In this document: positions 1-64,000 of the stretch, in pieces
How the letters are laid out: the number at the start of each line of letters is the position of its first letter
Position numbering within the stretch: the first letter of the stretch is position 1
Origin: Heterotrichella gracilis
Taxonomy: Eukaryota > Sar > Xanthophyceae > Tribonematales > Xanthonemataceae
NCBI GenBank assembly: GCA_032358255.1
Contig: JAULBX010010988.1
Coordinates: 8,645-72,644, forward strand
Direction of reading: 5' to 3'
Length of the DNA stretch: 64,000 bases
Notes under the pieces: generated by a model
The model's database searches: none
The model's input: only the letters and a program-made list of their open reading frames with translations
What the model was told of the DNA's origin: nothing
Translations under genes and position numbers: made by a program

Positions 1-6
1 GTGGTG

Positions 7-27
7 CCCCCCCCCCCCCCCCCCCCC
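7..27. repeat. Poly-C tract at window start
   Basis: A run of 21 C. It sits just upstream of the acceptor at 44-45 of the first visible VPS13 exon, so it is most simply the pyrimidine tract of an intron. Such runs are prone to length error in sequencing. Confidence 0.8.
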
Positions 28-45
28 TTTCGCTGGTCCTACCAG

Positions 46-3000
46 GATCCAGCTGGCCTCCCTAGCCCACGCCAGCCTCCAGGACATCGACAACGCGCTG
101 CTCACATCCATCGCCATCCACCCCCTGGGATTCGACCCATCCCCACCGGTGGCCATTGCACTGCGGGACCCATCCCCACGCGCCAGCGAGGCCACCTCTT
201 CATCTCGGGGAGGCGGGGAGGACCCCCCACCCCCCACCCGTCTGGAGACAAAAGTGGTGGTGTGTGAGTCGGCGCGCGCTGCAAGCACTGCGCTGCTGAC
301 GGTGCTTCGCAGGATCGACCCTGCGACCTCCAGCCATGAGGTGCGCAATTTTACAGTTTACTACATACTATTAAGGTGTTAATAATTTATTAGTACAGTT
401 TCATTGGAATTATGTATAATGCTAAGAAGCAGAGTCCCTTTAATTATGTAGTCTTCTGAATGGAAGATACTGCTCTCTGAATGGAAGATACCGTTCTCTG
501 AGTGGAAGATACCCTGCTTTCCCTACTTGCCGCCTGTTGTGCTGCTAGGGTATGCTTATGCAAACATTATAGTCAGCCCTGGTTACCTCATCTATGTTCC
601 TTTTTCAGGTGTGCATCAGCGCCCCGCTATGGGTCTACAACTGCAGCTCGGCGCCCATCGCGGTGCGGCGGAGCGGCGGGGACGACTGGGAATTCGGCCC
701 ACCTGATGCACCCCCCAAGCAGTGGCTCCCACCCTACGAGCTGGCGGCGGCTGCGGGGGCGCCACCTGGCAAATCCATGGCGCCCCGCACGCCCCAGAGC
801 AAGACCAACAGCGAGAGCACGGTGCCTGGGCTAGGTGCGCGCTCGGTACTTGGGTGTCATTTGCCTCTAGAGAAGGGATGACAGTGCATATAGTGCAGCA
901 AATTTCACTATTTTCTTTTTAATGAACCCATGTAAAAATGCTCAAGCTTATCTTTTATTTCCTGTAACAAGAGGGACTGACCCCAGGCATTGGCAGGCGG
1001 CTATTGAATGTGACGAACTCCTTTATATCAACTTTCAACGTATTGAATTTCTTTCCTTGCTGCCTAGGCGAGGTGCTGACCCCCGGCATGCGCCAGGCAG
1101 CCACCGATGCAGACACCGGCAGTGTTGATGTTGCTCTGCGTATGGGTCACAAGGCGCAGGGGAGGGGCATCCTGGAGAGCGTGGACCAGCTGCCGCCCTA
1201 TGAGGAGCCATCCAGGTGGGTAGGGTTTTGTAGGGAGTGTTAGGGTTTTAGGGTTCCGGGTGTGAAGCGTGTAGGGATTAGGTTTTGTAGGGCATGGCTT
1301 TGAACTTCACGAGGAGCCCTCCGAATGGACTGTGCATGTAGCACATGGCAACACCCTGCACCTAAACCCTAACCCCTAGACATCGTGGCGATCCTCAGCC
1401 ACAGGGTGCAGCTGCAGGCTAACCCTAAAAGACCCTAATCCCATCGCTCCCCACTCCCCACCAGGTGGCCCAGCCTGCTGGCAGGAGTGGAAGTGAGCAG
1501 CCACCGCGTGCGCCTCCAGTTACTAGCAACCCCCTGCACCGCACCCTACGGGGACACCTACTGGTCAGACGCGGTGGAACTGGATGCGCTGGGGGGTGCG
1601 GCCATTGTGGATGTGCCCTCCCCCTCCCCAGGGACCATGTTCCCTGCCACTGCCAAGTCGGTGTATGTCCTGGCGGTGACTGCCAAGCAGGTAGGTGGGT
1701 GGGGGGACTATGCAACCTTGTCATCACATGGGCGACACTGTGTGGCGCTCATGGCTCTGGTGTGGAGAAGTGCTTGTGTGGAAGCACACCTACCCCACCC
1801 CGCCCCAGAAAACTCAAAACCATTTTCATGACCCCTCCTCAACCCCCTCCCCCCTGCCCCGCAGGTTCCTGATTCTGGCGGCTCCCTGGCTGTGCACATC
1901 CTGCCGCGCTACGTGGTGCACAACATGCTGCAGGTGGCGGTGCAGTACAAGCAGCAGGGCACAGGGCACTCTCCCTCTTCCCACACTTTCCCTTCCCCCC
2001 TGCCAAACATATGCCGGTGCACTTGACATTTTGCCTCCCCTGCAGGTTCCCGACTCCGGTGGCTCCCTGGCAGTGCACATCCTGCCCCGCTACGTGGTGC
2101 ACAACATGCTGCAGGTGGCGGTGCAGTACAAGCAGCAGGGCACGGGGCAGGAGCGGGAGGCGCCCGCAGGGGCAGCAAGGGCTGTGCGGTGGCAGGACTC
2201 GTCCATGCCCTACCGCCTGTGCTTCAAGGTGCGAACACATGTGTCATATCAATTTTTGCAGAAATTTAAATTGAGGTTGCTAATCAGCCAGGGCTGTGGG
2301 CTAGCAGGACTCGTCCATGCCCTACCGCCTATGCTTGTGACCCGCATCCCGCCGACAGTGTAGCATGATATGATCATTGACGGCATGACCATTGGTTGTC
2401 ATGCCGTTCAGAAAAAAAAAGTAATGAAATGCGCTCTGAGTGCAAATTTCATGCTAAAATGGATTTTGAGAAGTTAGTGTAACTGCTCGGAATGGGTTGC
2501 TAGCAAGGTTGTGGGGCGGGTGTGGCCATGTAGTTGAAGAGCACACATTGGTAGGTCATGATGATGGCGGGCAGGCAGACGATATGGCAGGGTTTTCATG
2601 AAGATCAAAACCAGGCATAAAAGGTGACATTCTCTACCTTAAAAGGCGTATCAGTAGTGCATGTACTGATTTATAATGCCCCTGTGCTTCCAGGTGCAAG
2701 AGGCAGGGTGGCTGTGGTCGGGGGGCGCCATCCTGGACGCACCGGGGGACCAGTTCATCAAGATCAGGCACAGGGACAGGCAGGAGACGCTGCTTGTGCG
2801 GGTGGACGTGAGCGCCACCACCAGCGGTGTGCTTGTGGCGAGGTTGAGTCACGAGGCTGCCGGGTTTGCCCCCTACCGGATAGACAACTGCTCCCAGGAG
2901 ACGCTGCACGTCAGGTGGGTGCGTCAATCTTGCACCGTGCGCATGGGTGTGTAACAGTGGGGCAACCACTTGAGCCCAGATCAGCTCGGGCAGTAATAGA

Positions 3001-6000
3001 GCAGCCCAGCTGCATCACAATGCAAGCACAGCTGCACTTAGTCTCAAAATGCTGGTATCAAGCCCCAAGTGGTTGCCAGGGTTGAGAACACACAGCAATT
3101 GCATTAGGGGTATACTAGCTGTATTGTTGCCCTGGCGGTGCAATTGCATGCCAGCCCTGGCGGTGTCTACTTCAACAGACAGCATGCCGCTTGTGGCGTA
3201 TGTTGCTGTGATTTCCGCCCTCCCCACACTCACCCAGACACCTTCATCCACACCGCAGGCAGCAGCGCGTGGTGGAGTGCGAGGACGTGATCCGCCCCTA
3301 CTCCTCTCTCCACTATGCATGGGACGAGCCCCAGCTGTCGCACAAGCTGGAGGTGCAGCTGTCGGGAAACAGGTGGCTGGGCAGGTTCAACCTGGACAGG
3401 GTACGCAGAAGAGAATAAAATAAATAAATAAATGAAGAATATTTGTGTATATGTATACGGATCAGATTGAGAATGCGCTGGGCAGCATGCACTGAACAGC
3501 ACTGCTGCAGCGCATTATGCAGTAAACTGCAAGAAAGGCTCAACAGCGAAATATTACATGCCCCTGACAGGCCACAAGTTCAGTTTGGACAGGGTGCAAC
3601 GGGCAGCACCCACGTGCAAATTTTGGTAGGCTCCCCCTTGCATGTTTATTCATTCCATAAAAGCACTCGACCCTGCACCACTTTGCGCCGCCTGGCTCTG
3701 CCTTGGCGCTGCACCATTCTGAATGTGTAAAAACCCTACACCCTAAAACAAATGACCCTAAACCCTAAACCAATACCCACCTTTTCACAGATCGGTTAGC
3801 AGGCCACATGGCACATCAATGGGCGTCCCCGCTACGGCATCCCCCCCAAGGACCTCTCAGTGGTGATCCACTGGGCTAATTTATGTGCCATGACAATATG
3901 TTGCCGATCAGGGCGCCTTCAAGCCCTGAATGCTGAACCCTATACAGGGTACCCACCTTTCCCCTCCCCCTTTTGCAGATTGGCCAGCAGGCCACGTGGC
4001 ACATCAAGGGGCGCCCCCGCTACGGCATACCCCCCAAAGATCTGTCAGTGGTTGTGCGGGCTGAGGGCCCTACGGTGGTGCTGGCTGTGGTGGACCTCAG
4101 GTCACACTTGGGGGCTGGGCCGCTGCTGCCACCATCCAGGCAGGGGCTGGCGCCTGGGGTGGGGGCGCCTGCGCGCGGGGCGGGGGGGGCCGGGCAGGAC
4201 GCGTCTTCGGAGCACCAAGGTACGCGCTTGCAACGGGATTTTGGCGGGCGTTTATTGGATAATTTGTCAATAATAAACGACATTTAACAGGAACTATCAA
4301 ATCAGCTCCAAAATCCACCCTCTTTGCGCTGCCGATCTGCCACCCGTGCCATTACCCACCTACACTCCCCCTCGCACTCCCACCTCGCAGGCGCTGAGCT
4401 GGTGGTTGAGGTCCACATGGCGGGTGTGGGTGTGTCGCTGGTGTCGCCCCATGAGGAGGTGGCGTACGCGTGGCTGGGGGGTGTGGAGGCGCTTGCGGTG
4501 GGGGCCAGGGGGAGGTACACGCTGGAGGCCGCGGTGCAGAATGTGCAGGTGAGGGTGGCGGAGGGTGGGGGATGGGGGGGGGAGGAAGGGTGGGTGCTGG
4601 TATGGATGCTGGTAGGCTGCATGTGGTGGTGGTGGTGATGTGGTTGGTGCGAGGGTGGTGGTGGTGTACGTGAGGGGGGATGGAGGCGCTTGCGGTGGGG
4701 GCCAGGGGCAGGTACACGCTGGAAGCCGCGGTGCAGAATGTGCAGGTGAGGAGGGGGGTTGGGTGGAGGGTGGGGGGATGCGGGGCCAGTGGCGTGTAGC
4801 CTACCTGTGATGGGTGGGCGGGGGAACGTGGTGTGTTGCATGAACCCCTACATTACAGCTAAGATCAGTACACACCGCAAATAGGAAAGAAGAGGCCTAT
4901 CCCACTCCCATTCCCTCTCCTTGGCCCTCTTGTGCGCACGCGCGCACTTCCCCCCCCTTCTCGCGCCTCTCAAACCCTAAACCCTCCTCCCTGGAACCCC
5001 AACGTCACATCGTCAGCCCAACAGCTGTCTACCCTGTCACACTGTGCTGAACCCTGAACCCTCTCACATTTCCCCTCCCGCACCGCCTTCTCTCCCCCTT
5101 TCTCTCCCTTAAGAAAACACCCCCGCCCCCTTCTCTAGGTGGACAACACCTGCCCGGGTGCCGTGTACCCAGTCACCCTCTCCTCCCCAGTCACAGCCGC
5201 CTACTTTTCCACCCTCTCATGCCTCTCAAACCCCCCTCCCCCCTGCAACCCCATGTTGTTAACACCAGCCCCACCGTCGTGTACCCTTCCCCCCCAAACC
5301 CTCCCCCTCCCCTCCCCCTCTCACTCCACCATACCACCCTGCAGGTGGACAACACCTGCCCGGGCGCTGTTTACCCAGTCACCCTCTCCTCCCCAGTCAC
5401 CGCGGCTCGCTGGGCAGTGGTGGGTGCACACAAGGCGCTGGGCCCACGCCTGGAAGCGCTCAGGCTGCACACTACTGTGTGGAGCAGGAGACCGGGAGGT
5501 GGGTGGTGGGTGAGGGGTGCAAGGAAAGTACGGGGTGCACACAGGGGGCTAGAGTGGTTTGAGGTGGGGAGGGTTGTGGGGTGGGGGTGGGGTGCGCATA
5601 AGGCGCTGGGCTCATGGCAGGCTTCACAGTTGGTGGATGCTGCAAGGAATTTGGGTGCACACGGGGGGTCAGGAGTGTTTCAATGGAGGGTATTGGGGGT
5701 GGGCGCGGGTGGTACATTGTTGAGGGACTGCCACTACCACCACCACTGCCACCACCACTACCACTACCACCTCAATTACCTCCACCACCACCATTACCAC
5801 CACCACCACCACCACCCACCCGCCCTCCTCCACACCCCCACAGGTGTGCTGTGCATCGAAAGCCTGCACATCCAGCCGGGGCCAGTGGCCATCGACCTGG
5901 AACAGCGCCACCTGCAGCGACTAGCCACCCTCATCCGCCAGCTGGCACAGGCGGTCAGCCCCCCACCTGCACCCCCCTCCGCCGCCGCGTACCTGCCTGA

Positions 6001-9000
6001 TGTGTCGGTGCTGGTCCCTGGGACCGGAGATGGGGCGCGCCAGGGTTCCCAGAAGGTGTACATGGACCAGTTTGGGATCCCCAGGCTGGAGGTGACGCTG
6101 AGCTTTTTGCCTGCGCCGTGGCACCCAGGGGAGGATGCGGGTGCGTGCGGATGGGGAGGGAAAAACCGGGGGCACGGGGAATACAGTGGGTTAAAGAAAA
6201 GGCCGTAATTTAATTGGTTTTCCTGTGCTTTAGCACCCAGGGGAAGAAGCAAGGGATACGTTTGTGGTAATTTGCACATGTGCTGGGCCGATATAAAGGT
6301 GCCCTAAGGTGGCATGTGGCGCGTGCGGGCATAACTGGTTAGTGCTCAGAGTTATTCCTGCCGTGCCACCAACATTCCACTCACCCACCCACCCACGCTC
6401 AGGCCTCCAGCGCATCCTTGCCCTGCTGGATGTTGAGGATGCGCACATCCGCCTGGGGGCGATATCCATGGCGCACCCCCTGCTCAGCACAGATGCGCTG
6501 GCGCAGAGGGTGGCGCGGCACTACATGCGTGCGCTGCTGCAGGAGCTGTACAAGGTGGGTGGAGCAGATGTGGGGCGAGGGTGGATTTAGGGTGTGGGTG
6601 TAGGGTGTGGATGGGTGGGTGTTGTACAAGATGGGTGGGTGTGGAGATGGCGGAGTGGGTGATGGGTTTGGTGATTTGCACGGCGCGCCAGCTGAGCAAT
6701 GGTGCGGTGGCTCAGAGGGTGGCTCGCCACCACATGCGGGCGCTGGTGCAGGAGCTGTACAAGGTGGGGTGCACAGGTTTTGAGTGACCCCATGCAAACC
6801 GTACACCACCTGTGGTCTGATCAGCTTCACCCTTACGCAGTTCCACCCGCATGCCACACACTGCCCTAAACAGCACGTTTTATGGCCCATAATGTACTTG
6901 CTATGAAACAAACCCCCACTCACCCCCCTCTCGTCCTCAGATCGTGGGCTCCGCCAGCCTCCTAGGCGACCCCATGCGTATCGTACACCACCTGGGCCTG
7001 GGGGTGTGGTCATTCCTGGCGTCACCCGCTGCGGCAATCGTGGAGCTGCCACGTGGCACCTCGCCCGCCCACGTGGCGGCAGGTTTCGCCTCTGGCGCCG
7101 CAGGCCTGGTGGGGCATGTGGTGTTTGCCTTCAGCAACGCCACCACCAAGATGTCTGCGGCTGCGCGCAAGGGGCTGGTGGTGCTGGGGCTGGAGCGGGC
7201 GGATGCGGGTGGGTGGGGGTGGAGGTGGTGGTGGGGTGGGGGTGGTGGTGGTGGCGTGGGGGGTAGTTGTTTTCATCTGGGCAGAAGAGGCTGTGGTGCT
7301 GGGGCTGGAGGGGTAGCTAGTGGTAGGGATGGTGGTGATGTGGGGTACTGTGGCCATCTGCGCGCAAAGCACTGGCAGTAGCGGAGCCGTAATGGGCAGG
7401 TGCTGGTGCATGTGGGAGCGGGACAGGGGGCTGGTTGGCAGAAAGGCATGAGGACGCTTTGCTAAGCGTGAAGGGGTAGAAAGAGCGCAAATCTTGAGTC
7501 CTGGCGAAAATGCAACCAATGATAATTGTGGTAGTAGTATGGGAAGTTATCTGACTACCTGCTCCCCCCCCAGGCCCCGCCCGCCCACGCCTCCGGTGGC
7601 AGGAGGGCGCCCCCGGCGCCGACCAGGAGCCCCCGCACGAGGCCGGCATCGTGGACGCCGTCATGCGCGGCATTGTGGGCGTCATCTCTGAGCCCGTGCG
7701 CGGCGCCGACGAGGGCGGGGCCCTGGGCCTGGTGCGCGGCGCGTGGCGGGGCGCGCTGGGCGTGCTGGTGCGGCCCCTGGCCAGCCTCCTGGAGACCTCG
7801 GCCAAGGTTGGGGATAGCTTGCGGGTGGCGGTGTCGGGCCCCTCGGGGTACCTGACGCGGGTGCGGCCGCCGCGGTTTGTGCACCCGGGCGACCCGCTGC
7901 AGGCCTATGACTGGCTGGAGGCCATGGGCAGGTGCGCGTGGGGACTGTAGGGTTGCATTAGGGTGTTGGTGGGCATGTGGTAGGGTTGGAGTTTGGTATT
8001 GTTTGGCAGTTGTTGGTGGCGGTGGCAGGGCCGTGTGGACCGCCAGGGTACCCACCGCACGGTTTGTGCACCCGCGCGACCCGCTGCAGGCGTATGACTG
8101 GCTGGAGGCCATGGGCAGGTGCGGGGGCAGTAATGCATGTGTCAAGTTTTATTTATTATTATCATCATTGTTATTATTGTTGGATGTTTCTAATGTTATC
8201 TTAAAAACATCCAACAATAATGGACGTTTATTATAAACAGCTGTTGTACTTCCTGTTGCTAGATTGGTTTTGTGCCCATCATGTCATTTTGTCCTATTCT
8301 TCCATTTTACAATTGCAATCATGATAAACGAAATGGAACTGATCATTTCCAACTATCTGCACCTCTTATGCCTGTAATAATAATATTAATGTATTTTTTA
8401 ATGATAATCTGTGCCCCTGCAGGCACCTGCTGCTGGGCCTGGAGGGCGGCCGCTTCCTTCCCGGCGGCTTCATCGCATGCTTCGCCACGCTTCCCCAGGC
8501 GCCACAGGGCCAAACCACACCCGCCTCCTTCCTGGTGGTCACCCGCACCCACCTGCTGCATGCGCTGGCCTCGCACACCCGCCAGCCCCCCGCACTCACC
8601 TGGTCGGGGCCCCTGGATGATGTGCAGGACGTGCGCTGCAGCGGCGCGGATGTGATGGTAGGTTATTTGTGCTGACCACCATGTTTTTTTATATTGCCAT
8701 TTGTGTTTGTATAATTTATATTATAATATAAATCGTTACACGGGCCTCAGCTGGTTCCCATGTGACGCTGCGCTCACCACGCCGATGCCTCACAATTGAA
8801 ATAATATATAAGTGTTTACCTTGCCACAGATGAGATTTGGCATAAACTGGTTCTTGGCCTGGAACCAAACTTTTGTGATTGGAGTATAGGCAAGCAAGCC
8901 AGGTGAAATAATGTAAGTCAAAACCCAATAATCAAAGAGAACCAGGAAATGAAGCGTGTCCCTCACCTGTGCAGGTGACCGTGATTCGGCCGAGCGTGGT

Positions 9001-9205: not shown

Positions 9206-9324
9206 GGGATTTGGTACCCACTCCTCGCTTGGGCTGAAGTCTGAAATCCTACGGCGACGGTGGCATGGTGGTGCAGGGGTGGTGGGGTGGTAGAAGTGGG
9301 GCAGGGTGGTGTAGGTGTGTGTGG

Positions 9325-14140: not shown

Positions 14141-14296
14141 TCAAAATTCGTCATTATGTTGTTACTTGTGTGATGCCCATATGGGCGTGTCTCCAACTCT
14201 TTTGCAGCCCCCAGGGACCCTGTTTTGTACCTAGGTCTCTACCACGAGTACTCTAGTGAAAGTTTCATAGAGCGTCAACATGCCGGATGTTGAATA

Positions 14297-14363
14297 CAAT
14301 ACATATGCATTCATGTTGCCAAATGCACCTGTTGCATTTGGCAACATGAATGCATATGTATTG
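14297..14363. repeat. Perfect palindrome: 31-bp arms, 5-bp loop
   Basis: The left arm 14297-14327 and right arm 14333-14363 are exact reverse complements around CCTGT. The right-arm sequence plus flank (about 37 bp, CAACATGAATGCATATG onward) is then repeated directly, giving two tandem copies over 14342-14416. It lies in the 0.9-kb spacer between the helical paralogue and the oxidoreductase gene. It could be a MITE remnant, a cruciform or a small-RNA hairpin; sequence alone does not decide. Confidence 0.92.
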
Positions 14364-14416
14364 TGTTACACTGCCAGGCAACATGAATGCATATGTATTG
14401 TGTTACACTGCCAGGC

Positions 14417-15057
14417 AAATGAAGGCCAACGGCTCCTATGTAATTTGCCAGACGTGCAGCAAAAGGAGCTGCTCGGTGTGTTTATTCCAGTAATTAGGTA
14501 ACGAAGGGAAAAAAAAAATTGGACAAAAAAGGCAATGATGCATCATGTGCCGCTCTCAGGGGCAGCAGGCAGTGTGCACGAATCAACACAGATCATATGA
14601 GAATCTCTGATGATAATTTCAACGCTGCCCTGTTGCATGAAGTTTGACGTGAGGTGTTAGCGCTCATGCATCAAGATGATCAGCCTGAGGGTGGAACTGC
14701 AGTGTGAAACAAGAAAACACGAGGGTCACACGCAAAGCAAGGTCATACACACTGGCCTGTCCCAAGCCTCCCAGGTCAGCGCCATGCCCATATATATACC
14801 GCATATGCATGCATGCGTTGGAAACTATGCGCAGCTGAGACAAACTTGCATGTCCGTTCCCGTAAATGGTGCTCAGAACTCAAGAAGGTCCATACAGTCC
14901 CGCTCTCCACCCCGAATTCCCATCCGCTTCCCGTGAAGCCGATGCTGATATCCCCCTCCACCCCCCCTGCACCCCATCCAGCTTATCCTGCTGCAGCGCC
15001 AGCCTTGGAAAACGAGGTCTATATTTGCATTACGCACCCCTGGAGAATTTCAACCCC
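14417..15057. other. Spacer and 3' flank of the oxidoreductase gene
   Basis: No gene seen. Bases 14926-14955 echo the end of the oxidoreductase coding region (CCCGTGAAGCCGATGCTGAT against CCCGTGACGCCGATGGTGAT at about 15068), without the stop codon context. Confidence 0.6.
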
Positions 15058-49000: not shown

Positions 49001-51226
49001 AAGGGCATTGCAGAATAGGGTTAGGGTTTAGGACGCATGGTGCGATGCAGCGGATGCGGCGGCCATGCAGGTAGGGGATCCCCAATCCAGATGCAGAAGG
49101 GCTGAACCCTAAATCCCAAATGGAGGGCATTGCAGATTAGGGTTAGGGTTTAGGGCGCGCAATGCAATGCAGCGGATGCGGCGGCCATGCAGGTAGGGCA
49201 CAGATGGGAGAACCCTAAACCCTCTACAAACCCTAAAGCCTGAATCGGAACGCTCTCCAATTCTACACAATATCGCTCCCTGGCTCCTTGTCTTTGACCG
49301 ATTGAACCAGCGTGCCCGTTCAGGAACAGGCTGCACAGTCATTCCTTCACTTATAATCATTTCAAATTACTTGTAATTTCAATTTACTTGCAATTTGAGT
49401 TATTTCAATTTGCCATGCAGGACGCCTTGCGCGTGGTTGTTGCGATGCTGCGTGCCACGGGCGCAGAGCTGCACAAACCGGAGTACAGGTACTGTACAGG
49501 GCATTGCAGGTACTGTACATGTATTACAGATACTGCACATGTAACAGGGAATTACAGGTACTGTACAGGGAATTACAGGTACTGCACATGTAACAGGGAA
49601 CTGTGGACAGGAGGGGTATGGCGTGGCTTGGCTCATGCATGGGCATGCCCCTCAACCATGTCGATGTTAAAGTAGAGGCTGCGTAAGAATGTTCAGCACC
49701 TTGGATTTGCCATGCTTCTAATTACTGTGTTGTCTATGTGTGATACAAAGTACTGAGCTCCCTGTCTGACCTGGTTTGGTCCTCTGATTCCGATTTTGGT
49801 TTTAGAAAGAATGGACTCGCTCCAATTTCCTTGCTGATTCTGACTTGGATCCATTTAATTATTGCCGTATGTTACAAGATTTACAAGATTTTATTTGACA
49901 GTCACATATTCTTGCAGGGGAAAGCAGCATGTGCGTGAGTTGATGGTGCTCGTCGACGGAGTGAGGCAATTGCCAGACCCCACGCCAGTCTACCGACAGC
50001 TGGCAAGGCAGGGGGCGATGGAAGCCATCGCAACGGGGATGCTGGCCTTCCTCCCCTGCCTCCACCTGCCTCCAGAGGGGGTTGACAAGACCGACGAGGG
50101 GAGGGGAGGGGAGACACGGAGGGGAGATAAAGCAATTCAGGGGAGGAGGCGCAACTGTGGTTTGGACACCCACTACACCGATTCCGCCCAATTCAAGCTC
50201 GCGCACTCCCTCGTCCCCCTGCTGCACCAGCTCCTCTCCAGTGCGGTGGGCAAGTGAGTGGCACTGCTCTCCTCTGTTCTGTGAGGTCTAGGTTTAGGGT
50301 TTAGGGTTCAAGAATCGCCCTCCTCTGTGCTGACTTTCCTTCCCCCGGCCTGATGCTCAGCGTGAGCGAGGCCATTTGTTCATATCTACTTCTTTATAAC
50401 AGTCTATGTAGTCAGTTGTTTTTGTAGTTGAGGGTGGAGAGCCTTCCGCCCGGGCCTGTTACACTGTACCTTTCTTTATTTTTCTACTCTTTATTTCTAT
50501 AATTGGCTTATTGTTGTTTGCAGGTTGCGGGTGGAGAGCACTCCCGGGCTGCTGCCTAGTGTTTCCGAGGCCATGGGTCGGGTGTCCCTCCTGCAGGGCA
50601 GTGACGCATTCATGGTGGCGGAGGTGATGCGCCACTTCATGCACCTGCTGGGGGTGCTCCAGTGCAGGGCAAAACGGCAGGTAGGCGGTGGGTGGACAGG
50701 GTAACGTTCATTTGCTGCATGGCGTGTGCGTATTGAACGGAGGTATTGGTTTCATGAATAGGTGGGTTTGGCACAAAACGACAGGGTATGTGGCATGCCA
50801 CAGGGTCGAGTAGCTTGAGGCGGTTCTCCCCCCTGCCCGGCTGGGCCCATATGGTTGCAACTAGCGGATGGCAGGCAGCCAGCTGTGCGCATGCGGAGCT
50901 GCAGGACCCATATATATATTGGGCCCATTGCATCTAGCTGGTTACAGCAAGCTGGGGTAGCTGGGGGTGCGCAGGGAGCATATGGTGCGCAGCAGGCAGT
51001 GGAGGAGGGGGCGGTACCGGTGTGCGGCCTAGCCCTGGGGCGCTCATTATTGCTGGCTGGCTGGTGGACTGCAGAGCAAGGGCCATGTGGACAGAACCTT
51101 GTGGACCGCCATGGGAGCATGCCACAGCAAGGTGCATATGTACTGCAGGACAGTGGCGTGGAGCAGGGGATGTGCCAAAATGCCTATGCTTTGGAGCAGC
51201 AGGCAGGGGGACTTTGCGATGCCTAA
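46026..51226 (+). CDS. Unrecognised helical-repeat protein with N-terminal presequence
   Basis: Not assigned to a family. Exons: 46026-46105, 46514-46670, 47312-47430, 48216-48327, 48779-48961, 49421-49488, 49918-50253, 50524-50680, 50948-51226 (stop), all in phase, about 496 residues. If the last intron is not removed the protein stops at 50704 (about 411). The N-terminus MRPIAVTAAAAAFAMAMLQA is Ala-rich and hydrophobic with following ARRAFGKR, like an organelle or secretory presequence, then a Pro/Ser/Lys-rich stretch (PPIPPTPPPTPTKSRKAPG). The rest is Leu/Ala-rich helices (EEVLIPYYITQLFNYQDP; LHLLAKFDELLPAVLELASA; RTQHQLQHAGLRLMAVMVRS), ARM/HEAT-like by eye. The exon at 48779 has an in-phase upstream duplicate (48571-48696) that could be a cassette exon. 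A truncated relative lies at 11895-14140 on the other strand. Exons are certain as a set; function is not. Confidence 0.65.
47471..47528 (+). repeat. Echo of exon 47312-47430 (3' part)
   Basis: GAGGACCCAAAGACGCGCATG to GCCTGTGCGCAG resembles CAGGACCCCAATGCGCGTCTG to GCCTGTGCACCG in the exon. It follows directly after CCCTAAACC units. Confidence 0.82.
48571..48696 (+). repeat. In-frame duplicate of exon 48779-48961 with its own splice sites
   Basis: Acceptor CCCTTGCAG, 42 open codons (GTQHQLQHAGLCLMRVMVHS, then RRFLRSAMAHP) and donor ACC|GTGAGC. It starts with the same sequence as the real exon and is in the same phase. Unlike most echoes it could be spliced in, adding 42 residues, or be used instead of the downstream copy. 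Confidence 0.85.
49033..49199 (+). repeat. Two echoes of exon 48779-48961 (3' end with donor)
   Basis: GGTGCGATGCAGCGGATGCGG to GCCATGCAG|GTAGGG at about 49039-49078, and a second copy at about 49160-49199. TTAGGGTTTAGG precedes each copy, so heptamer plus exon end form one repeating unit of about 120 bp. Confidence 0.93.
49480..49608 (+). repeat. Minisatellite built from a 5' splice site (TACAG|GTACTG)
   Basis: Starting at the exon end at 49488 the motif TACAGGTACTGYACA recurs about five times with GGGAATTACAG, GGGCATTGCAG and TGTAACAGGG spacers. Several copies carry the exact donor junction. Confidence 0.9.
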
Positions 51227-53437: not shown

Positions 53438-56400
53438 TCAGAGGTATGCCTTCTCCAGTGTGGACACGATCTTCTCCTGGTTGTTGAGCCGGGCCACGTC
53501 CAGCGGGATCTTGCCATCGAGGTTCTTGGCTGTGCAGTCGGCGCCACTACGGGAGGGGGGAGGCGGGGGTAAGTAGTGTGTGGGAAGGTGTTCCGATGTT
53601 GGGTAGGGTGCAGAGCTGTGCGGTTGACGTGCAGCATGCCTGGCGCTAGGCGAGCGATGTGCACATGTGCCCTGTCCATTATCACTCATAATTTATGAGC
53701 CAGGATCTTGCCATCAAGGTTTCTGGCGGTGCCAGTCGGCGCCACTGGGGGCGGGGAGGAAGGGAGGGTTAGGGCAGGCTGTGGGTTCAGGGTTAGGTGA
53801 CATCAGATGGTGAACGGTGGCTCCCTGTCAGCAGGCACTTGACCCTAAATCCTAAACCCTAAACCAGTTGTCAGGGCCTTGGTGTCCAGGCACATGGCGG
53901 TGGCGTCGGCGCCGATGGCAGGGCGTCAGGGCCAAACTCTAAACCCAAAAACCATGCATATGGCAAACGACTCCAGTCCCACAGCACCCAACAACCCCAC
54001 CCCCACCCACCGCAGGACCCTCCACCCTCACACCATACACCTAACGCACCTCTTGAGCAGGACCTCCACGCACTCCAGCTGGCCATACCCGGCGGCATAG
54101 TGCAGCGCGGTGTTCTTGTTGTTGTCGAGCGCGTTCACATTGGCGTGGGCGCCGATCAGCGCCTCTGCGCACGCCAGCTCGCCGTAACCGCACGCAAAGT
54201 GCAGCGCGGTGCGCCCCTCCTCGTCCTGCTCGTCTATCGCTGCCCCCTCGTCCAGGAGCGCCTGCAATTGGGCCACGTCGCCTGCGGATTGGGTGGGGTG
54301 GGGTGGGAGTCAGTTGAATCCCTGGATGAGGGCGGTTTTTGTGTATGGGGTGTGGGTGTGGGTGGTTCCCTCCTCGCCCTGCCCATCTATCGCTGCCCGC
54401 CTGGTGCAGGTGCATCTCACATCAAACCACACCACATCACCAACCTTACCCCCCCCCCCCCCACTACTACAACCCTCCCCACGCACCTGTGCTGGCTGCG
54501 CCATGCACACTTGGCTCCTCCTCTCCCTCATCCTCATCCCCCGCCACAATGCCGCTGCCCACCCCCTCCTCCCGGGTACCCTGGCCGATGCTCACCCCCT
54601 CAAATGCGCTGCTCATGGCGCCGCTCAGCTTCTCCATCATGGCAGGGTCGTTCCAGTACCTGGGAAGCGGGAGTCCAGGATATTAGGGTTAGGGCATGTA
54701 TTATGGGGTTCAGGGCAGAATGCCGCCATAGCGCCGCTGAGCTTCTCCATCATGGGCGGATCCTTTCAGTAAACGAGGTAGCTGCTTATTCACAAAGTGA
54801 ATGAAAACAGTTCCATTCTTTTTTTAAATACTATTTTTACTTTTAGGTCAAATTAAAGACTGTAACGTTTTTTTTAAATACTAGTTTTACTTTTAGGTCA
54901 AATCAAAGACTGTACCGCACTCCCTTCATCAAGGCTGCTGGCCCACCCCTCTCCTCCCCGTGCGTATGCAAGATCATGCTTCTGGCCAAAGCTTTCCACC
55001 TCCAAACCTACCTACCCTCGCACCTCAAGGGACTCAAGGACTAACCCCATGCATGCGCAAACCCCGGCCCCCTCCCGCAACCCACCCATAGCCACTCACT
55101 CCATCATGGCTGACGGCCCTCCCTCCCTGCCCCGCCTACAACACCCTCACGATTCCCCAAGAAAACGATACAAAACCATACACAAAGTCAACGCAAAAAA
55201 ACAATCCATATTCTGTATCTACTTTCAACTTCTCATTTTGATAATATGCTGTACCGCACTCACTTCATCATGGCCGCTGGCCCGTCCCTCTCCACCTCCT
55301 CCATGACCTTTGCGTAGTCTGGGTCGTCCTTGAGCCCCTTGAGCTTGCTCTCTATCTGCTCGCGCACATCCGGGGACTGCATGGACTGCATCATGTTCAC
55401 CAGGTTGGGGTCCGACTGCAAGGGGAGAAGAAGAAGTTAGTGGTTGCTTAGGGTCTACTAATCAGGGTTTACAACTGCGAGGGGCTCAGAGCTGGGTGGG
55501 GTACAGCATGGACTGCATTATGTTCAAATTGGGGTCCGACTGCAAGGAGGAGGGAAGAGGGGTGGGTTAGTGGCTGTTTAGTACAGGTTGTAATGGTTGT
55601 GTTGGGTTGGGTAGTGCATGGACTGCATCAACTTGACTAAGGTGGGGTCCGACTGCATGGGGAGAGCAGAGGTTTTAGTGGCTGTGTAGGGTTCAGAGTT
55701 CGGCACTGGGGGCCTGCTTGGACTGCAACATGTTCAACAGATTGGGGTCCGACTGCGAGGAGAGGAGGGAAAGGTGGTTAGTGATTGCCTAAGGTTCATG
55801 TTTTGGGTTTTGCGCTGGGGTGAGTACTGCAGGATGCTGCATGGACTGCTGGATGTTGACCAGCTTGCGGTCCGACTGCGAGGAGAAGGGAGAAGGGGTG
55901 GTTAGTGGTTGTGTAGGGTTTAGCGCTAGGTGGGGTACTGCATGGACTGCATCATGTTGGCCAGGTTGGGATCCAACTGCGAGGAGGGTTGGAGGGGTGG
56001 TGAGTGGATGTTTGTGGCTTACTACTTAGGACTTAGCGGTGAGGTGGGTACTGCATAGACTGCTGGCCAGGTTAGGATTCGACTCCTGCTAGGGCAACCA
56101 CCTTGCCCCCGCCAGCACCCCCCAGGGGTTACCTTGAGGCGCCTGAATTAGTCCCCAGGGCCAGAATCGCAGCCACCACCACCCGACGCACCTCCATGCT
56201 TTCCGTGCCCAGGCTCTGCGCCATGTCGACAACTCGGGGTTGCTCATGGCCTGCGTTCCCTAGCTGAGTATAACCCTAAACCCTAAACTGTGAACCCTAG
56301 ATCGCCTCGCTTGCCACCGAAAACGCAGCCGCCCCACCACCACCACACAACCACCACCGCCAGCCACCGCCACCTGTCGCACCTCCATGATTTTCGTGCC

Positions 56401-57517: not shown

Positions 57518-58082
57518 CGCTGATGTGCTTTGTTTGCTCGAGGTTTTCTTACTGACCCTGTGTGGAGTTTAGCGCAGCTAAACAGCGGAAAACTGGAGGT
57601 GGCGAGGGCAGGTTTTAGTTTCAGGGCATATACAGACGCAAAGAATGGCTCTTTGTGTAGCGATTGCGAGGAAGAAAGAGGGGTTGCAGCCTAGAAAACA
57701 GGCCTTATCCTGTGTGATAAGAATGGGTGGCTGCTGAAAAGCTCCTCAGTTTACAGTTGAGGAAAGGGGACAGATAATAGTCAGCGGGGAGGTAATTGAA
57801 GACACCCTCGCTTTCTTTTCAGTGTAGTCTTCCCCTTGAGACGTTTCTCTGTTGCTGAATGCCATCGCCCAAGTCCTTTTTCGGTGACACAGCGGGCTGG
57901 AAAGCAGTGTTCGGAACAGCCGATGCCATGTGCGTAATGGTGTTTCAACAACTCGCCAGCGGGAGCACTGCACAAAGTTTGCACTCACGGAATGTATCCC
58001 CATGCCACCCAGTGGGTCCAAAACTGAATTAATCACGCACACCCCTATGGCAACGTCCTGATTCATCGGTTATCACACCAAC
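57518..58082. promoter_or_regulatory. Bidirectional spacer between AKR2 and the F-box/LRR gene
   Basis: Only 565 bp separate the two start codons, so this must hold both 5' UTRs and promoters. I see no echoes, telomere-like units or clear TATA box in it. Confidence 0.6.
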
Positions 58083-61000
58083 ATGGCGTCGAATTCCAGT
58101 TTCCGTGACTGGACGGAGCTACCAGTAGACATCTGCGAGCAAGTCGCACGCCATCTGAACAACGAGGCCATCTTGCAATCTCGTGTCAGCAAGTCCTGGG
58201 CACTGTCCTTCACCACCGCCATCACCTCAGCCCGCCTCATCGCGCCCTCCCCCACCACCCCACATTTCAGGCCATCGTCCCCAAGCCACTTCAAGCTGCG
58301 ATTCCCCAACCTCTCCTCCATCTCCCTGTTCCTCCCCAGCCTGGGCTCAACCCACAACAGCCTCGTTGCCCTCACAAGCCTGCCGTGGCTGACTGGCCTC
58401 ACCATCGAAAACGCAAACTGGCACTGCCTCTGTGGTTTTGGGCACCTCAGCAAGCTTACTCACCTCACCAGCCTCTCCATATTAGAAGCACCCAGCACAG
58501 GTAAGCTGCTGGGCAGTTTTGAACCCATGTCGTGCAAGTATTTCACATATTACCAACACTGTCAGGTCACCCACACCGCCGCTGTCATGGCTTCCTGTTG
58601 TATCAAGACTTGGCCACGTTGTGCCACGCCGCAGGCGCCCAAGTTGGGTTGGAAATTAATTTCTTTTTCCAGTCAAGTTCCGTTATATTTGGCGTTCATG
58701 CCCATGTGTTGCAAGTCATTCCGATCCGGAGCATATTTGCTGAAACTGTTTGTAATTCTGATTGCACAGGGCGCGAGGAGACCCAGCCCCAGGAGTGCTG
58801 CAGCGCCTGCGGGAGCGACATCAAGGCATGGAGCAGGCTGTTCAGGGTTCTGGGCGCCATGCCACAGCTGCTAGAACTGACCATCGTTGAGGGCAGGCTC
58901 CGAACCCCCGCCTCCTCCGACCCCGCGCTCCTGGCAAAGGTGTGGTTTTATTAATAATGTTATTTTTTATTTCTCAAGATAATTCGACTAGAGTACGCTT
59001 TTGCTACAAAGGACTTGGAAAGCGTTGTATGGTTGCTCGCCCTTACACTGCTACTTCACTGTCCATTTTCAACTTGCGTGTGGTAATCACTAGCACTAAT
59101 TTAGGGAATTGCCTGAAGCTGTGTTACTGTATGCGTACACTCATTTTGGTGACACAGTTAGGTACGTTCTATTTGGTGACTACTTACATTGACGTGCTGT
59201 GGCTTGATAATGATTTAGTCACATCGGACCGTCATTCATGGTTGCACGTCCAACTCCATGCCTGTGGTAACCACTAGCACTCCTTCATTAGTTAGTTAGT
59301 TAGCTAGTTAGTTAGTTACATGCATTCCAGCAAAATAGCCAGATTAGCACTCCTTCATGGCCAGGATTAAAGCCCTTATGTTTTCACCCTTTTATCCATT
59401 TTCACAGGTGTTTTCCAGCCTGAGGCACCTGAAGCGCCTCCAGGCGCTCGACCTCACCCTGAGTGGCGAAGCTTCCCGCCCGGGCGCGCTGGGCCAGTCC
59501 GCAGCGACGCCTGGAGCAATATGCCGCGCCCTGGCGGGCCTCAACCACCTCACTCGCCTGGCCCTGCGCAACTGCATCATCGTACCCCACTCCAGCGACA
59601 TCCAGCCCCTCGCAGCCCTCCAGCACCTGCGGATGACGGGCTTCGCCAGATACGACGATGACCTCAATGACCTCCCGAGCAGCCTCACTGCCCTCCATGT
59701 GGACGTGAACACCCCCACGCTGTACTGGGCATCCCGGGGAATGGAATTTGTTCAGGGAATGGAATTTCAGGAAGCATCCCAGGGATTAACCGCCATCCTG
59801 CCCCAGCTGGTGGAGTTTTCAGTTGATGTGGAATGCTGCACCCCCCCCCCCGGGGCCGCCATTTTAGACCTCCAGCTTCCCCCAACCACCACCTCCACCG
59901 CCTTCCGCCTCTACTCAAAGCGCACCGAGGTCACAGCCATACTCGAGCGCCTGTGCCACCCCAGCTTCCACCACCATTGCACCCTCCAGAACCTCCAGAT
60001 CGGGGAGGTCGACGGCCCGGCCCTCAACCTGGCATCGATCAGCAACCTGACAGCCCTCACGTCCCTATCTGTGCGCAACTTCAACCAGCAGGCCAATCCC
60101 GGGGAAACCCTGCTCGACTGCCTGGGGACCCTCACCAATCTGAAGAACTTGGAGCTGGACTGCCCCGCGGTGCTCTCCATCGAATGGGGCATGTCGGACG
60201 ACCGCATGGCCGCAATAGCTTCCACCCTCACCAGCATCACCAGCCTTGTGGTTACCGACAGTTGGTTCACGCCCCGCAAGGGCAGGCCTGCGCTGGGGGA
60301 CAAGGGGGTGGAGGCCCTGGTGAAGGGTTTGCCTGGGCTGGTGTCACTGGAACTGGCGCTGAACACAGTCTCTGAGGCGGGGTTGGTGCACCTGGGGGCG
60401 CTGTCCAGGCTGCAGCACTTAAGGTAAAACCCTAAACCGCAACCCTAAACGATGGCAAGGCAATGACTGGTGCCATGGTTGAACGTGCTCCATGCGATGT
60501 ACCGTAGAGGTTCTGGGGTTTAGGGTTTCAAGGTTTATGGTTTGTGTCATTTGAGCTGGCGTTGAACACAGTCTCTGAGGCGGGGTTGGTGCACCTGGGG
60601 GCGCTGTTCAGGCTGCAGCACCTCAGGTAAACTCTGAACCCTACTCGTGTGCAACAAGACTCCAAACCCTAAACAGCAATGAATCCCTTACCCTAAAACA
60701 CGCTGTAGAACCCATGGGCAGCAAAGCAATGACCGGATTCCCGCCACCCCCCTCACACACCACACGCACCTCACACACCACCATCCCCCACCTGCAGGCT
60801 GGCCTCCTGGTTTTCTGCGCAGCACCGCACCCCCTGCTCCCCCCCCTTCCCCCTCTCCGAGTGCGCCATTTCCACCTGGCCCCGCACCCTCCGCAGCCTG
60901 GTGCTGGACCATGATTGGGCAGTGAGCGACCAGGTAGGTGCTGTGAACAAGGCTGCCTATTCACCCGCCCAGAGCTGCATGCGCAGCGCCTCTGGATTAC

Positions 61001-62309
61001 CACATGGCATTGGGTGTAGCACTGGCTTAAAATGCACAGCTATTTTAACCACCGGACTTGGCTGCCTAGCCGTAGACCACCTTGACGAGGACCCTACCAA
61101 AACCCTACTAAAACCCTGTCTAAACCCTAGCAAACAGTGGTTAAGTGGCCGATTCGTTGCAGATTCTGTGCGCCATCGCCACCCTGAGCATAGACCACCC
61201 GGAGGAGAACCCTAGCAGAGGGTGTTGGTCTTGGTCTGAGCACCCTATAGGAACCCTATAGGAACCCTATAAGAACCCCAGCTGAGGGTTTAACCTGTGC
61301 AGGTGCTGCACGCCATCGCCACCCGGCTGACGGGGCTCACCAGCCTGGCCATAGACCATCTTGATGAGAACCCTACGAGAACCCTAGCTGAGGGTTTTAC
61401 CCGTTGCAGGTGCTGCACGCCATCGCCACCCACCTGACAGGGCTCACCAGCCTGGCCATAGACCATCTTGATGAGGTGTGTGGCATAGGGGGGACGCGCA
61501 CCATCAGTGAAACGGGGCTGGCTGAGCTGGGGCGCCTCCACTGCCTGCGCGACCTCAGGCTGCACTGGCAGGGGGACATGCAAGGTGGGACGAAAGACAA
61601 ACTGCAATCTTTATAACATCTTGATCATTGTATTTGTAAGGCGGTATCGTAATCATACCCTTAGCAGGATGCGCATCTAGTTGAAAGTGTTATTTAGTAT
61701 GCATGGGGGGGGTGTGGCGCCTGCACTGCCTGCGAGAGCGCACAGTGCATTGGCAGGGGGACATGCAAGATGGGGCATGCAGAGGATGGGACTTGGGGTA
61801 ATAATAAGTGCAGAACAGTACCACTCCATTCCAGTCCGCCCCACCCCACCCCACCAGCCACCCACCCCCTGCAGGCCTGCGCCGCACCCACTTCCAGTCC
61901 CTCCCCTCCCACCTCACCGCCCTCTCCCACCTGCACGCCATCAGCCTGCGGCCCCTTACTGAGGCAAACTGCTCCTGGCCCGGGTGCCAGCAGGACAGGG
62001 TGCAGTACTACCGCGCGCTGCAGGTAGGATTTTAGGGTTTAGGGCTTTAGGTTTAACCAAAGGTTTAGGGTTTTGGCTGCCTGCAGGATAGGGTGCAGTG
62101 CTACCGCTATAGTTTCGTTGCTTTCCATCTCCTGTCTTTCCTTATGCTCTTTCTGATTTGCAGCTCTCACGTGTGCTCTAACACCAGGTTGCTTTTGTAT
62201 GTTTTTTGTGTCTGCTAATATATCCTCACCTTTGCTGCAGGCGCTGCAGGACAGCAGCCCCCGCATCATGCTGCCGGGGCATCTGGTGGGCACACGCGCA
62301 GGGCTGTAG
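58083..62309 (+). CDS. F-box/leucine-rich-repeat protein
   Basis: Probable substrate-recognition subunit of an SCF-type ubiquitin ligase; target unknown. Exons: 58083-58500, 58770-58939, 59408-60423, 60798-60933, 61410-61584, 61875-62023, 62241-62309 (TAG), giving 710 residues with phases closing. F-box-like region at residues about 10-45 (WTELPVDICEQVARHLNN then SRVSKSWAL). LRRs run to the C-terminus: LTHLTSLSILE, LKRLQALDLTL, LNHLTRLALRNC, LTALTSLSVRNF, LTNLKNLELDCP, LVSLELALNTVSEAGLVHLG, LTGLTSLAIDHLDE, LHCLRDLRLHW. Start: first ATG, directly before the F-box. The last four introns and the 3' flank hold echoes and TTTAGGG/CCCTAAA units; the first two introns do not. The F-box call is the less certain part, because F-boxes vary widely. 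Confidence 0.85.
59286..59319 (+). repeat. (GTTA)n tetramer repeat
   Basis: About eight GTTA/GCTA units in intron 2 of the F-box/LRR gene. Confidence 0.9.
60540..60632 (+). repeat. Echo of F-box/LRR exon 59408-60423 (3' end with donor)
   Basis: GCGTTGAACACAGTCTCTGAGG to CAGCACCTCAG|GTAAAC is nearly identical to the exon end and donor, 184-190 bp downstream. TTTAGGG/CCCTAAAC units lie between. Confidence 0.95.
61055..61375 (+). repeat. Three echoes of F-box/LRR exon 61410-61584 (5' end, two with acceptor)
   Basis: The best copy, 61301-61375 (GTGCAG|GTGCTGCACGCCATCG to CATCTTGATGAGAA), is almost exact. A decayed one is at 61155-61210 and a fragment at about 61060-61100. Each breaks off into GAACCCTA/GGACCCTACC-type units at the same point, GATGAG. 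Confidence 0.93.
61700..61790 (+). repeat. Echo of F-box/LRR exon 61410-61584 (3' end with decayed donor)
   Basis: GCGCCTGCACTGCCTGCGAG to GGGGGACATGCAAG|ATGGGG. The donor GT has become AT. Confidence 0.9.
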
Positions 62310-62440
62310 AGCTTTAGGGTTTAGGGTTTAGGGTCATGCTGCAGAGGCACCTGATGGGCACGCGCCCAGGGCTGTGGGGGTGTAGGGTTTAGGGTTTAGG
62401 GTCATGCTGCCGGGGCACCTGGTGGGCCCCTGCACAGAGG
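62070..62440 (+). repeat. Echoes of the last two F-box/LRR exons, extending past the stop
   Basis: GGATAGGGTGCAGTGCTACCGC at 62086 echoes exon 61875-62023. Bases 62333-62375 and 62401-62440 echo the terminal exon (CATGCTGCCGGGGCACCTGG), each preceded by TTTAGGGTTTAGGGT. In one copy the stop region reads CTGTGG. Confidence 0.92.
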
Positions 62441-63849
62441 CTGCCTTGTGGAGGGTAGGTGGCGGGGTGGGTGAGGGTGTGGGTTGGCAAACCCTGGGCG
62501 CTGGGGCGGTGTGGCGTTATGGTGGGAAAGGCTGGGAGTGAAGCTGTGAGTGTGGTGGCTGTGGTGGCGCGTGCATTTGACGGTTGGTTGGTGCGGTGTG
62601 GTTGAGAAAGGGGGAAACTTGCAAGTGACCTTCAGGGAAGGACTATCAGTGATATAGCGTATCACTCTATGTGCTATAGCCGCAGGGTGCGCGTAGGGCC
62701 AGTGGTTGATGGCCCAAGTTGGCCGCAACAGCCCGGCTGACAGGCCCCAACAAAGGGTTTTCAATATCATTTGCCAACCAGTGGTGTAGACAGTGTCAGG
62801 CCAAACTTTTTGTGGTACGGCAATGAGGTATTGCCCCTCTTCGTGGCTGCTTCCCCAGCAGCAACAGTGCCAGCTGTGTGTCGTGCGTTTGTGTACCGTG
62901 ACTCATCTGCGGCATGCAACCCCCCAAGGGTCCGTAACACTTTGCTAGGATCTGTTTACAACACTTTGCCGCTGGCTGGCTGTGCCCTCAACGGACCTCA
63001 GGTTGTGTGTTCAACGCACGACCTGACCAGCAGACGAGGCTCGCTGACTACGCTGGCAGGCTCTAGAAGCGCACCTCATGAGAGGTGCAAGCTTCCACCG
63101 TGGTGGTGGTGCTAGTTTTGTCACAATGCGTTGTGACTAAACCCTCTAGAGTATTCGGCCACCTCAGCTCCTCCTGAACCAGTCTTCGCCCTCGGCTTTG
63201 TCTCGGAACAGAAGGACTGGGTTTCGGTTAACGCTTCAGCATGGATATGCAGCTTCGGCTCAGCAAATGGTTAGGGCCTCAGCAAATGGCTAGGGCTGTT
63301 GATGACTCATCTCAAAACTTGCACCCGTGTAACCATAGCCACGCACATGCGTTTATGGTGACCATCCCTGCCCGTCAGGGTGTTAAGATGCAGAGCCCCC
63401 TGTTGTTTGGTCGAGCAGTGGGATGCATACGCCGAAAGCCCTATCTAGTGGCGAGGGGCGCAGGACGAAGCTGCAGGCACGTGACCCACGTGATTGGAAA
63501 AAGATTCAAACGGTGCCATGTGGTGTGATCACATGGGGGACTTTTAGCCGACTGGCCCGGGCCGCCCGGCCGCAGCCGCAGGCCAGGGTCTGCTCGCGGA
63601 CCTTCCTCGGAAGGTAGCGCCTTGCTGGGCAGTACATAGGCCCAAGTGGGAGGAATGGTGTGTCTCTTTTGCTCTGTTGGTCGCCAGTTTACGTTTGGCA
63701 ACCTTTTAGCACCTCGTGCGCCGTCCTGTTTTGCAATCAGAGCTACAGATAGCAATCAAACTGGGGTGTTCCTCCGCTGCAAGCGAGGTACCGGTGTTGT
63801 CACGGCAAACACCTTCCCACAGTGATCTACAGCTGTTTTGCCAGCGATC
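62441..63849. other. Intergenic region before the last gene
   Basis: No supported gene. A plus-strand frame at 63423-63617 encodes an Arg-rich 64-residue peptide without recognisable features and was not called. Confidence 0.55.
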
Positions 63850-63924
63850 ATGGGCGCCCGAGCCCACTTTGTCAACTTGAAGAACAAGACGTTCAACTTC
63901 TTCAGCAACTTGAAGAAAGCAGTG
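63850..63924 (+). CDS. First exon of an unrecognised gene (3' partial)
   Basis: ATG at 63850 opens 25 codons (MGARAHFVNLKNKTFNFF, then SNLKKAV). A strong donor GTG|GTGAGT follows at 63925 in phase 0. The peptide is basic and amphipathic. The remainder lies beyond the window, so no function is proposed. A minus-strand frame over the same bases is a shadow. Confidence 0.4.
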
Positions 63925-64000
63925 GTGAGTGAAGCACCTTTCGCTGTGCACCGGTACACCTCAGCTCCAGGATGATGAAAAAAACACGTTTTGTGGATTT

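Follow-up and report, generated by a model that had tools for sequence, protein, structure and literature searches.

The stretch of DNA considered here, 64,000 nucleotides of a Heterotrichella gracilis contig and referred to below as the window, holds eight gene models according to a gene predictor, and the introns of six of them carry partial copies of the exons that they adjoin. A donor-side copy repeats the end of an exon and lies downstream of it, and an acceptor-side copy repeats its start and lies upstream. This arrangement, on both strands, had been described in a first reading of the letters alone (the original prediction) and was seen in the 74 copies analysed here. The distance from the real to the copied splice site is given below as the spacing, in bp, together with the identity of copy and exon.

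The predictor was trained on 264 kb of one assembly, made up of the 64-kb window and 200 kb of further GC-rich pieces, namely 70 kb from each of two other contigs and six 10-kb pieces. Its splice consensus is CAG/GTGGGT for the donor and TGCAG/G for the acceptor, the slash marking the splice site. Pfam matches in the window support a clathrin-adaptor small chain, an mTERF protein, an SNF2 protein and an LRR protein, of which the SNF2 protein (SNF2/ISWI-like) matches chromatin remodellers. From the look of their proteins, we take other window genes to encode VPS13, saccharopine-dehydrogenase, JmjC and ankyrin proteins.

Exon-edge copies and their decay

The presence of exon-edge copies in introns is confirmed. 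A copy was called where the end of an exon aligned with its own intron at a score of at least 34, the search being made in exon-sense orientation only. Eight predicted exons that were copies of a neighbour had been masked, whereby such copies count as intronic by design; 325 introns were left after masking, and 319 of these were tested. At a score of at least 40, matches were obtained on the donor side for 40 of 319 and on the acceptor side for 32 of 319, compared with 0 and 0 of 319 for introns of other genes and 2 and 0 of 319 for the reverse complement of the own intron. At a score of at least 34 there are 74 copies, 44 in the window (25 donor-side, 19 acceptor-side) and 30 in the 200 kb from other contigs. 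The original prediction had counted seven genes and about fifty instances in the window, slightly above the six of eight gene models and 44 copies obtained at this threshold. Self-alignment of the 264 kb also gave a predominance of direct local matches over inverted ones (113 versus 6).

Each copy comprises 26-146 exon bases. The copied part ends within 5 bp of the exon edge in 57 of the 74 copies and short of the edge in the other 17. Among the 49 copies ending within 1 bp of the edge, GT is retained in 21 of 26 and AG in 18 of 23 (39 of 49 together); the dinucleotide is not retained in the other ten. The echo splice sites are possible decoys, a role that is putative. Overall, 62 of the 319 introns carry a copy. 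The proportion is 35 of 81 in the window and 12 of 94, 13 of 74 and 2 of 70 in the other samples (together 27 of 238), which indicates that the original prediction had met a rich spot of a wider pattern. Its statement that most large introns are affected holds for the window, where 24 of the 38 introns of at least 400 bp carry a copy, and fails outside it (17 of 67). Nor do the copies fill the introns, since they occupy merely 2,577 of the 37,586 intron bases of the window.

In the VPS13-like gene on the forward strand, acceptor-side copies are found at 1865..1968 (copy of exon 2046-2228 in intron 1691-2045; spacing 181, 93%, with all 7 differences at third codon positions), at 3798..3864 (5' part of exon 3979-4219; spacing 188, 90%) and at 5139..5200 (exon starting at 5345; spacing 206, 92%). 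Donor-side copies on the same strand belong to exon ends 4548 (4657..4745; spacing 197, 93%), 6554 (6670..6763; spacing 209, 82%) and 7931 (8015..8118; spacing 187, 89%), all three with GT retained; in the last of these the final 59 exon bases and the first 5 intron bases are 97% identical. On the reverse strand, exon 15062-15261 has an acceptor-side copy at 15334..15380 (spacing 119, 94%), with telomere-like filler at 15295..15309 between the true junction and the copy. Exon 17062-17214 has a donor-side copy at 16854..16906 (spacing 208, 89%) and an additional one at spacing 97, and exon 17622-17775 has an acceptor-side copy at 17889..17964 (spacing 190, 91%). Exon 18377-18539 is copied on both sides, at 18189..18317 from its donor end (spacing 188, 86%; telomere-like filler at 18346..18360 in between) and at 18708..18768 from its acceptor end (spacing 229, 93%).

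Farther along the forward strand, an array of 2.6 tandem units of 112 bp (92%) extends across a donor at 24820..25105. Donor-side copies follow exon end 27210 (27264..27310; spacing 100, 87%; telomere-like filler immediately before the copy), exon end 28826 of the SNF2/ISWI-like gene (28981..29049; spacing 223, 94%; about 150 bp of diverged intron flank) and exon end 33801 (33852..33896; spacing 95, 87%; telomere-like filler just ahead of it at 33831..33841). The exon starting at 43528 has an acceptor-side copy at 43284..43348 (spacing 244, 94%) and a second one at spacing 123. In the JmjC-like gene, exon 48779-48961 has an acceptor-side copy at 48571..48682 (spacing 208, 89%) and, from its end at 48961, a donor-side copy at 49031..49070 (spacing 109, 90%), the next being at spacing 231; the sequence from 48983 to 49032, between exon end and first copy, contains telomere-like words at 48983-48995 and 49021-49032. 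On the reverse strand, a decayed array starting at exon edge 55415 occupies 55372..56084 with copies at spacings 127, 237, 337, 460 and 561, and a copy of part of exon 56338-56564 at 56170..56247 (spacing 191, 92%) stops 23 bp before the donor. In the LRR gene on the forward strand, exon end 60423 has a donor-side copy at 60544..60621 (spacing 203, 94%). In the spacer of this copy (60427..60528), a C-rich telomere-like word occupies 60427-60438 and a G-rich one 60516-60528, some 15 bp ahead of the copy. At 61262..61475 on the same strand, acceptor 61409 is spanned by two 107-bp tandem units that abut each other (91%).

On the whole the copies evolve like neutral DNA. Differences between copy and exon fall on codon positions 1, 2 and 3 in numbers of 116, 122 and 215 over the 74 copies; the third-position share of 215 of 453 (47.5%) is close to the half or so expected if the exon alone is constrained. 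Of 45 indels in copies, 43 break the reading frame. In ten arrays the exon part diverges by 13.6% from real exon to copy and by 21.3% from copy to copy, the ratio expected for drifting copies beside a non-drifting exon. The intron parts of these arrays diverge by 27-31%, gaps included, with about 0.5 indels per substitution in the flanks versus 0.1 in the exon part. A general coding constraint on the copies is excluded by the codon positions and the frame-breaking indels, bar three odd copies considered below. Gene conversion keeping exon and copy alike was also rejected: differences are unclustered (combined p 0.38, 24 copies), identity is flat at about 0.9 along the exon part, and the array divergences fit neutral decay.

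Telomere-like sequence between the copies

In part of the cases, telomere-like filler lies between the real exon edge and its copy. The motif is the organism's telomere repeat, as five contigs have 45-base TTTAGGG arrays that begin no more than 7 bases from the contig start. The same motif is given for Chlorella and Coccomyxa (PMC12633428); taken with the gene content, it would suggest a green alga. The RNA-binding domain of TERT is present in the genome, with two matches to PF12009 located on the same contig (best E 4.8e-13) and none in any of 14 control genomes. Genome-wide, a 17-mer of the repeat has 2,437 matches, overlaps within arrays included, versus 1 for the reversed control word. Telomere-like loci in the sampled sequence number 82 in introns, 7 in intergenic DNA and 0 in 78 kb of predicted exon, with 0.8 expected overall. 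Considering that predicted exons hold no telomere words, a word at a join with exon sequence on its other side was not copied from the exon-side break point.

The clearest filler is located on another contig (C50, locus L015), where, at a spacing of 70, a 39-base run of telomere-like repeat separates five donor bases from the exon-edge copy behind it. Of 52 spacers, 22 are telomere-like at p<=0.05 (2.6 expected), and spacers are more telomere-like than the flank of equal length behind the copy (Wilcoxon p 0.0018). The join between the two copies has a telomere 8-mer no farther than 15 bp away in 15 of 38 cases (6.9 expected) and a telomere 11-mer in 8 of 26 (3.5 expected). Viewed from the telomere-like loci themselves, 36 of 90 lie between direct repeats, compared with 12.3% of 1,500 random intron positions, and 0 of 90 lie between inverted repeats at the same threshold. 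Introns with a copy contain telomere words in 28 of 62 cases versus 33 of 257 for other introns (odds ratio 3.4, p 0.003, stratified by length and window).

The telomere words within 60 bp of acceptors comprise 24 C-rich and 0 G-rich ones; near donors there are 12 C-rich and 19 G-rich ones. A use of the telomere word as a branch point was considered and rejected: CTAAA shows no enrichment upstream of ordinary acceptors (ratio 0.68), and the tracts preceding these acceptors are simply rich in C. The bias at acceptors is therefore read as selection against G-rich sequence. None of the titles listed by literature searches bore directly on telomeric repeats within algal introns, on a splice-signal role of telomere words, on interstitial telomeric repeats combined with introns and tandem duplication, or on algal cases of partial exon copies that retain their splice sites.

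Proposed origin and rival explanations

We consider it probable that the echoes are halves of target-site duplications that arose when widely staggered double-strand breaks were repaired, in many cases with the addition of telomeric filler. In such an event the DNA would break with its strand cuts tens of bases to about 150 bases apart, and fill-in of the overhangs would leave the segment between the cuts present twice. Direct joining of the ends would give abutting tandem units; alternatively, filler would be placed between them, in many cases a short stretch of the organism's own telomere repeat. Where the duplication spans an exon edge, the outer splice site would still yield the old mRNA and the spare copy would lie in the intron; since the old mRNA is still made, the duplication would be tolerated, and the spare copy would then decay neutrally. 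Duplications inside exons would be lost to selection. Donor copies would lie downstream and acceptor copies upstream because the mRNA must stay intact. We infer staggered breaks as the cause of the duplications and telomerase as the source of the filler. The original prediction is supported in part, a DNA-level repair process acting in many contigs being the best fit.

The rival that survives best, which we regard as rather unlikely, is that the copies are plain small tandem duplications, generated at random positions by replication slippage or unequal exchange and then sieved by selection, with telomere words being incidental or marking fragile sites. Abutting arrays do exist. The original prediction had called random tandem duplication a poor fit; in simulation, random local duplication does reproduce the junction-centred look, provided that indels accumulate quickly in intron flanks and short flanks are excluded. 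Duplications were placed at random with spacings drawn from the two observed classes, were retained if the mRNA was unchanged and at least 40 bp of intron were included, a minimum imposed because the sample shows it, and were then left to neutral decay; this simulation supersedes an earlier one with equal indel rates in flank and copy and no minimum flank. The ratio of exon-intron to intron-only events was 215:110 with 0.12 flank indels per substitution, 127:49 with a rate of 1 and 129:15 with a rate of 2. The observed clusters (67 exon-intron, 14 intron-only, 1 intergenic, 3 exon-exon and 3 other) give 67:14, which falls between the simulated ratios for rates 1 and 2. The simulated boundary profile is also near the observed one if flanks take indels about as often as substitutions. 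Random duplication with equally low indel rates in copy and flank was rejected, since a short intron match is then far rarer than observed. What plain tandem duplication leaves unexplained is the telomere-like sequence at the join, exons having none, and the existence of copies that are 92-94% identical to the exon and have a spacer without any match in the flank behind them.

In the original prediction the unit copied was the splice junction as such, an explanation that we consider improbable; such copying might occur, for example, at R-loops or spliceosome-marked boundaries. Several observations agree with it. In 41 of 49 copies the similarity extends no more than 15 bp into the intron beyond the splice site; the exon share of the spacing covers a narrow range (see below); and telomere words are enriched near splice sites. 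On the other side, random duplication followed by selection and decay yields much the same picture, intron-only duplications exist (14 clusters beside the 67), and 17 of the 74 copies end short of the exon edge. In most copies the spacer has no homology to the flank behind the copy. Remnants of a longer duplicated flank are seen in 19 of 57 copies at z>2 and in 13 of 57 at z>3, and their detectability (z>2.5) declines with identity, from 3 of 3 copies at >=95% through 8 of 13 at 93-95% and 3 of 9 at 90-93% to 1 of 17 below 90%. The fading of flank homology with age makes a junction rule less needed, as would intron flanks that take indels about as often as substitutions.

The spacings have two peaks, at about 106 and 194 bp, separated by a gap, a two-component fit being better than a one-component fit by 28 units of the Bayesian information criterion. 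Of the 22 copies with spacings of 175-214, 18 are in the window. The larger value is near common nucleosome spacings. The possibility that the 194-bp class is a doubled 106-bp class that has lost its middle copy was rejected, as the 16 copies with spacings of 179-209 gave one clear middle peak and one weak one. Pairs of telomere words counted genome-wide by gap number 954 (gap 48-77), 1,021 (78-107), 529 (108-137), 474 (138-167), 422 (168-197) and 349 (198-227), which supports the short unit and shows no second peak.

It should be mentioned that a number of observations weigh against staggered-break repair with telomeric filler. The narrow peak at about 194 bp is not predicted by it. The exon share of the spacing is confined to a mean of 0.44 (standard deviation 0.10) in 33 copies of the short class, and the intron part is below 40 bp in only 2 of these 33. 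This narrow share is not given by even placement of breaks unless at least about 40 bp of intron are required. A branch site and acceptor tract may demand 40 bp on the acceptor side; we see no good reason for such a demand on the donor side. The narrow share and the 40-bp minimum together are the strongest remaining point for junction copying. The sharp boundary of the copies requires flank indels about as frequent as substitutions, and the arrays show about half that; the required rate being higher than the measured one, inserted filler must supply part of the gap. As to the filler, 30 of the 52 spacers are not telomere-like at p<=0.05, and at spacings of 150-260 just 4 of 19 are. Outside the copy-bearing introns, flanking repeats were found at 10 of 48 telomere-like loci at score 28 versus 6.8 expected, which is little excess; with this small excess and the non-independence of loci within arrays, the flanking-repeat test draws mostly on the copy-bearing introns. 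Telomere words are enriched near splice sites in general (within 60 bp, 31 versus 14.8 expected at donors and 24 versus 15.6 at acceptors), so that part of their association with copies could stem from splicing constraints. Young copies are few, 3 of 45 having at least 95% identity, whereas simulations with even ages give 33-40%; an old burst or assembly collapse could account for this. Finally, the three odd copies of the VPS13-like gene (1865-1968, 3798-3864 and 5139-5200) have 19 of 19 differences at third codon positions, as if translated still, and the spread over codon positions is uneven among copies (heterogeneity p 0.004).

These three VPS13-like copies could be used exons. We regard it as quite improbable all the same that coding selection acts on some of the echoes as genuine alternative or duplicated exons. 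The predictor had initially called eight copies as exons, and the third-position pattern of the three copies points the same way; the codon-position counts over all 74 copies and the frame-breaking indels speak against it. In addition, the alignment with PDB chain 6pwf_K (ISWI), the one remodeller chain displayed among the matches, spans the copy-bearing junction at 28826 without a repeated segment, and the spare copy remaining in the SNF2 query lies in a stretch that is unaligned to this chain.

Local reinsertion of RNA-derived copies, which the original prediction had also offered, can be set aside as very improbable: the copies are in exon-sense orientation, the sole one searched, and the inverted control is nearly empty, but the sequence past the exon edge fits the intron better in 47 of 49 copies and the spliced neighbour exon in 1 of 49, and copies form DNA-level tandem arrays that include intron flank. 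It is noted that sampled parts of two contigs, one of 894 kb (C1; L001-L005) and another (C100; L016-L020), have 36% GC and are intron-free with dense long open frames, few local repeats (2 and 3, in 50 kb each) and no telomere words; they look bacterial, and the assembly seems to be mixed with bacterial DNA. An assembly artefact, for which this mixed origin and the scarcity of near-identical copies, as if collapsed, might speak, is scarcely credible given that most copies differ by 3-20% from the exon, show a neutral codon pattern and occur on several contigs.

A more far-reaching version of staggered-break repair can be put forward tentatively, as possible and rather less than likely. Telomerase would regularly take part in repairing wide staggered internal breaks and would thereby be the main engine of intron growth, with filler and local duplication laid down repeatedly, breaks favouring exon borders, and the C-rich telomere strand accepted as acceptor tract.

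Relation to known systems

We have compared the copies with other systems in which break repair leaves repeats, each as described in the parts of the papers cited here. In Daphnia, intron gain and growth have been attributed to staggered double-strand-break repair, with direct repeats within introns and a proposed passive trend to longer introns (PMC4202315). Direct repeats from staggered breaks inside introns would be common to both cases. The Daphnia repeats, however, are 4-12 bp long and common to new intron and exon, whereas 26-146 exon bases are duplicated here in longer introns, often with telomere-like filler. Another study examined 213 introns, reported direct repeats at or close to the borders of every one and linked them to break repair on insertion (PMC11782384); those repeats of 4-30 bp stand at the two intron ends, unlike the exon edges copied within the intron in the present case. 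Introns are also reported to arise by tandem genomic duplication of AGGT segments, the spacing becoming the new intron (PMC3443670). This resembles the present tandem duplication at exon sequence with splice sites, except that the spare copy here lies within a longer intron and the spacing is not the intron length. Intron gain by the same process was not seen among 304 introns, in which exon-end copies at the intron end numbered 0 at score >=24 (0.0 expected) and 4 at score 20 (1.2 expected).

The filler is best compared with the short interstitial telomeric sequences of mammals, which are inserted at double-strand breaks and of which none is reported in human exons (PMC2246262, PMC7215372). 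Both are the organism's own telomere motif at internal sites and absent from exons. Some mammalian loci show direct target duplication, ascribed to staggered breaks; they form a minority of 6 of 130 in rodents, 4 of 25 in primates and 3 of 66, with 2 complex ones, in the horse (PMC2246262, PMC7215372). In H. gracilis, by contrast, 36 of 90 loci have direct repeats nearby, and the density of loci is far higher. In mammalian cells, CST and polymerase alpha-primase, which are active at telomeres, produce small tandem duplications at overhang breaks that are joined by end joining (PMC8355091). Tandem units are likewise found here and abut in a subset (the 13 of 57 copies with z>3, and the arrays). 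In contrast, no telomeric filler is described in the cited part of that work, and most copies here have a non-homologous spacer.

Introners are families of similar copies across genes and alter introns genome-wide. The copies described here differ in that 58 of 58 direct self-matches lie within 4 kb of each other, as counted in the window.

The combination of long duplicated segments, telomere-like filler and a trail marked by exon edges across many contigs was not seen in the cited parts of these papers. Intron lengthening and the source of the added sequence are known from few recent cases. If true, repair scars consisting of duplication, often with filler, would account in a simple way for how introns grow in this alga. 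The genome seems to hold a large and dateable record of such events: because each exon edge provides a conserved reference copy, a single assembly suffices to read how old each event is, where its break points lie and what filler it received. If the telomeric filler is confirmed, telomerase, break repair and intron evolution would be linked on a larger scale than in mammals, for which 80 to 250 loci per genome are given in the parts of those reports cited above.

Three minor observations may be added. The gene models at 12355-14111 (reverse strand) and 48779-50680 (forward strand) have similar protein stretches at their ends, as judged by eye, as if paralogous. A 37-bp unit is present in 2.3 repeats (97% matches) at 14293-14423, next to a short inverted 28-bp match. 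Within predicted coding sequence at 2812-3829 of locus L023 (52812-53829 of the joined C50 piece), there is a 367-bp direct repeat, 98% identical, at a spacing of 651.

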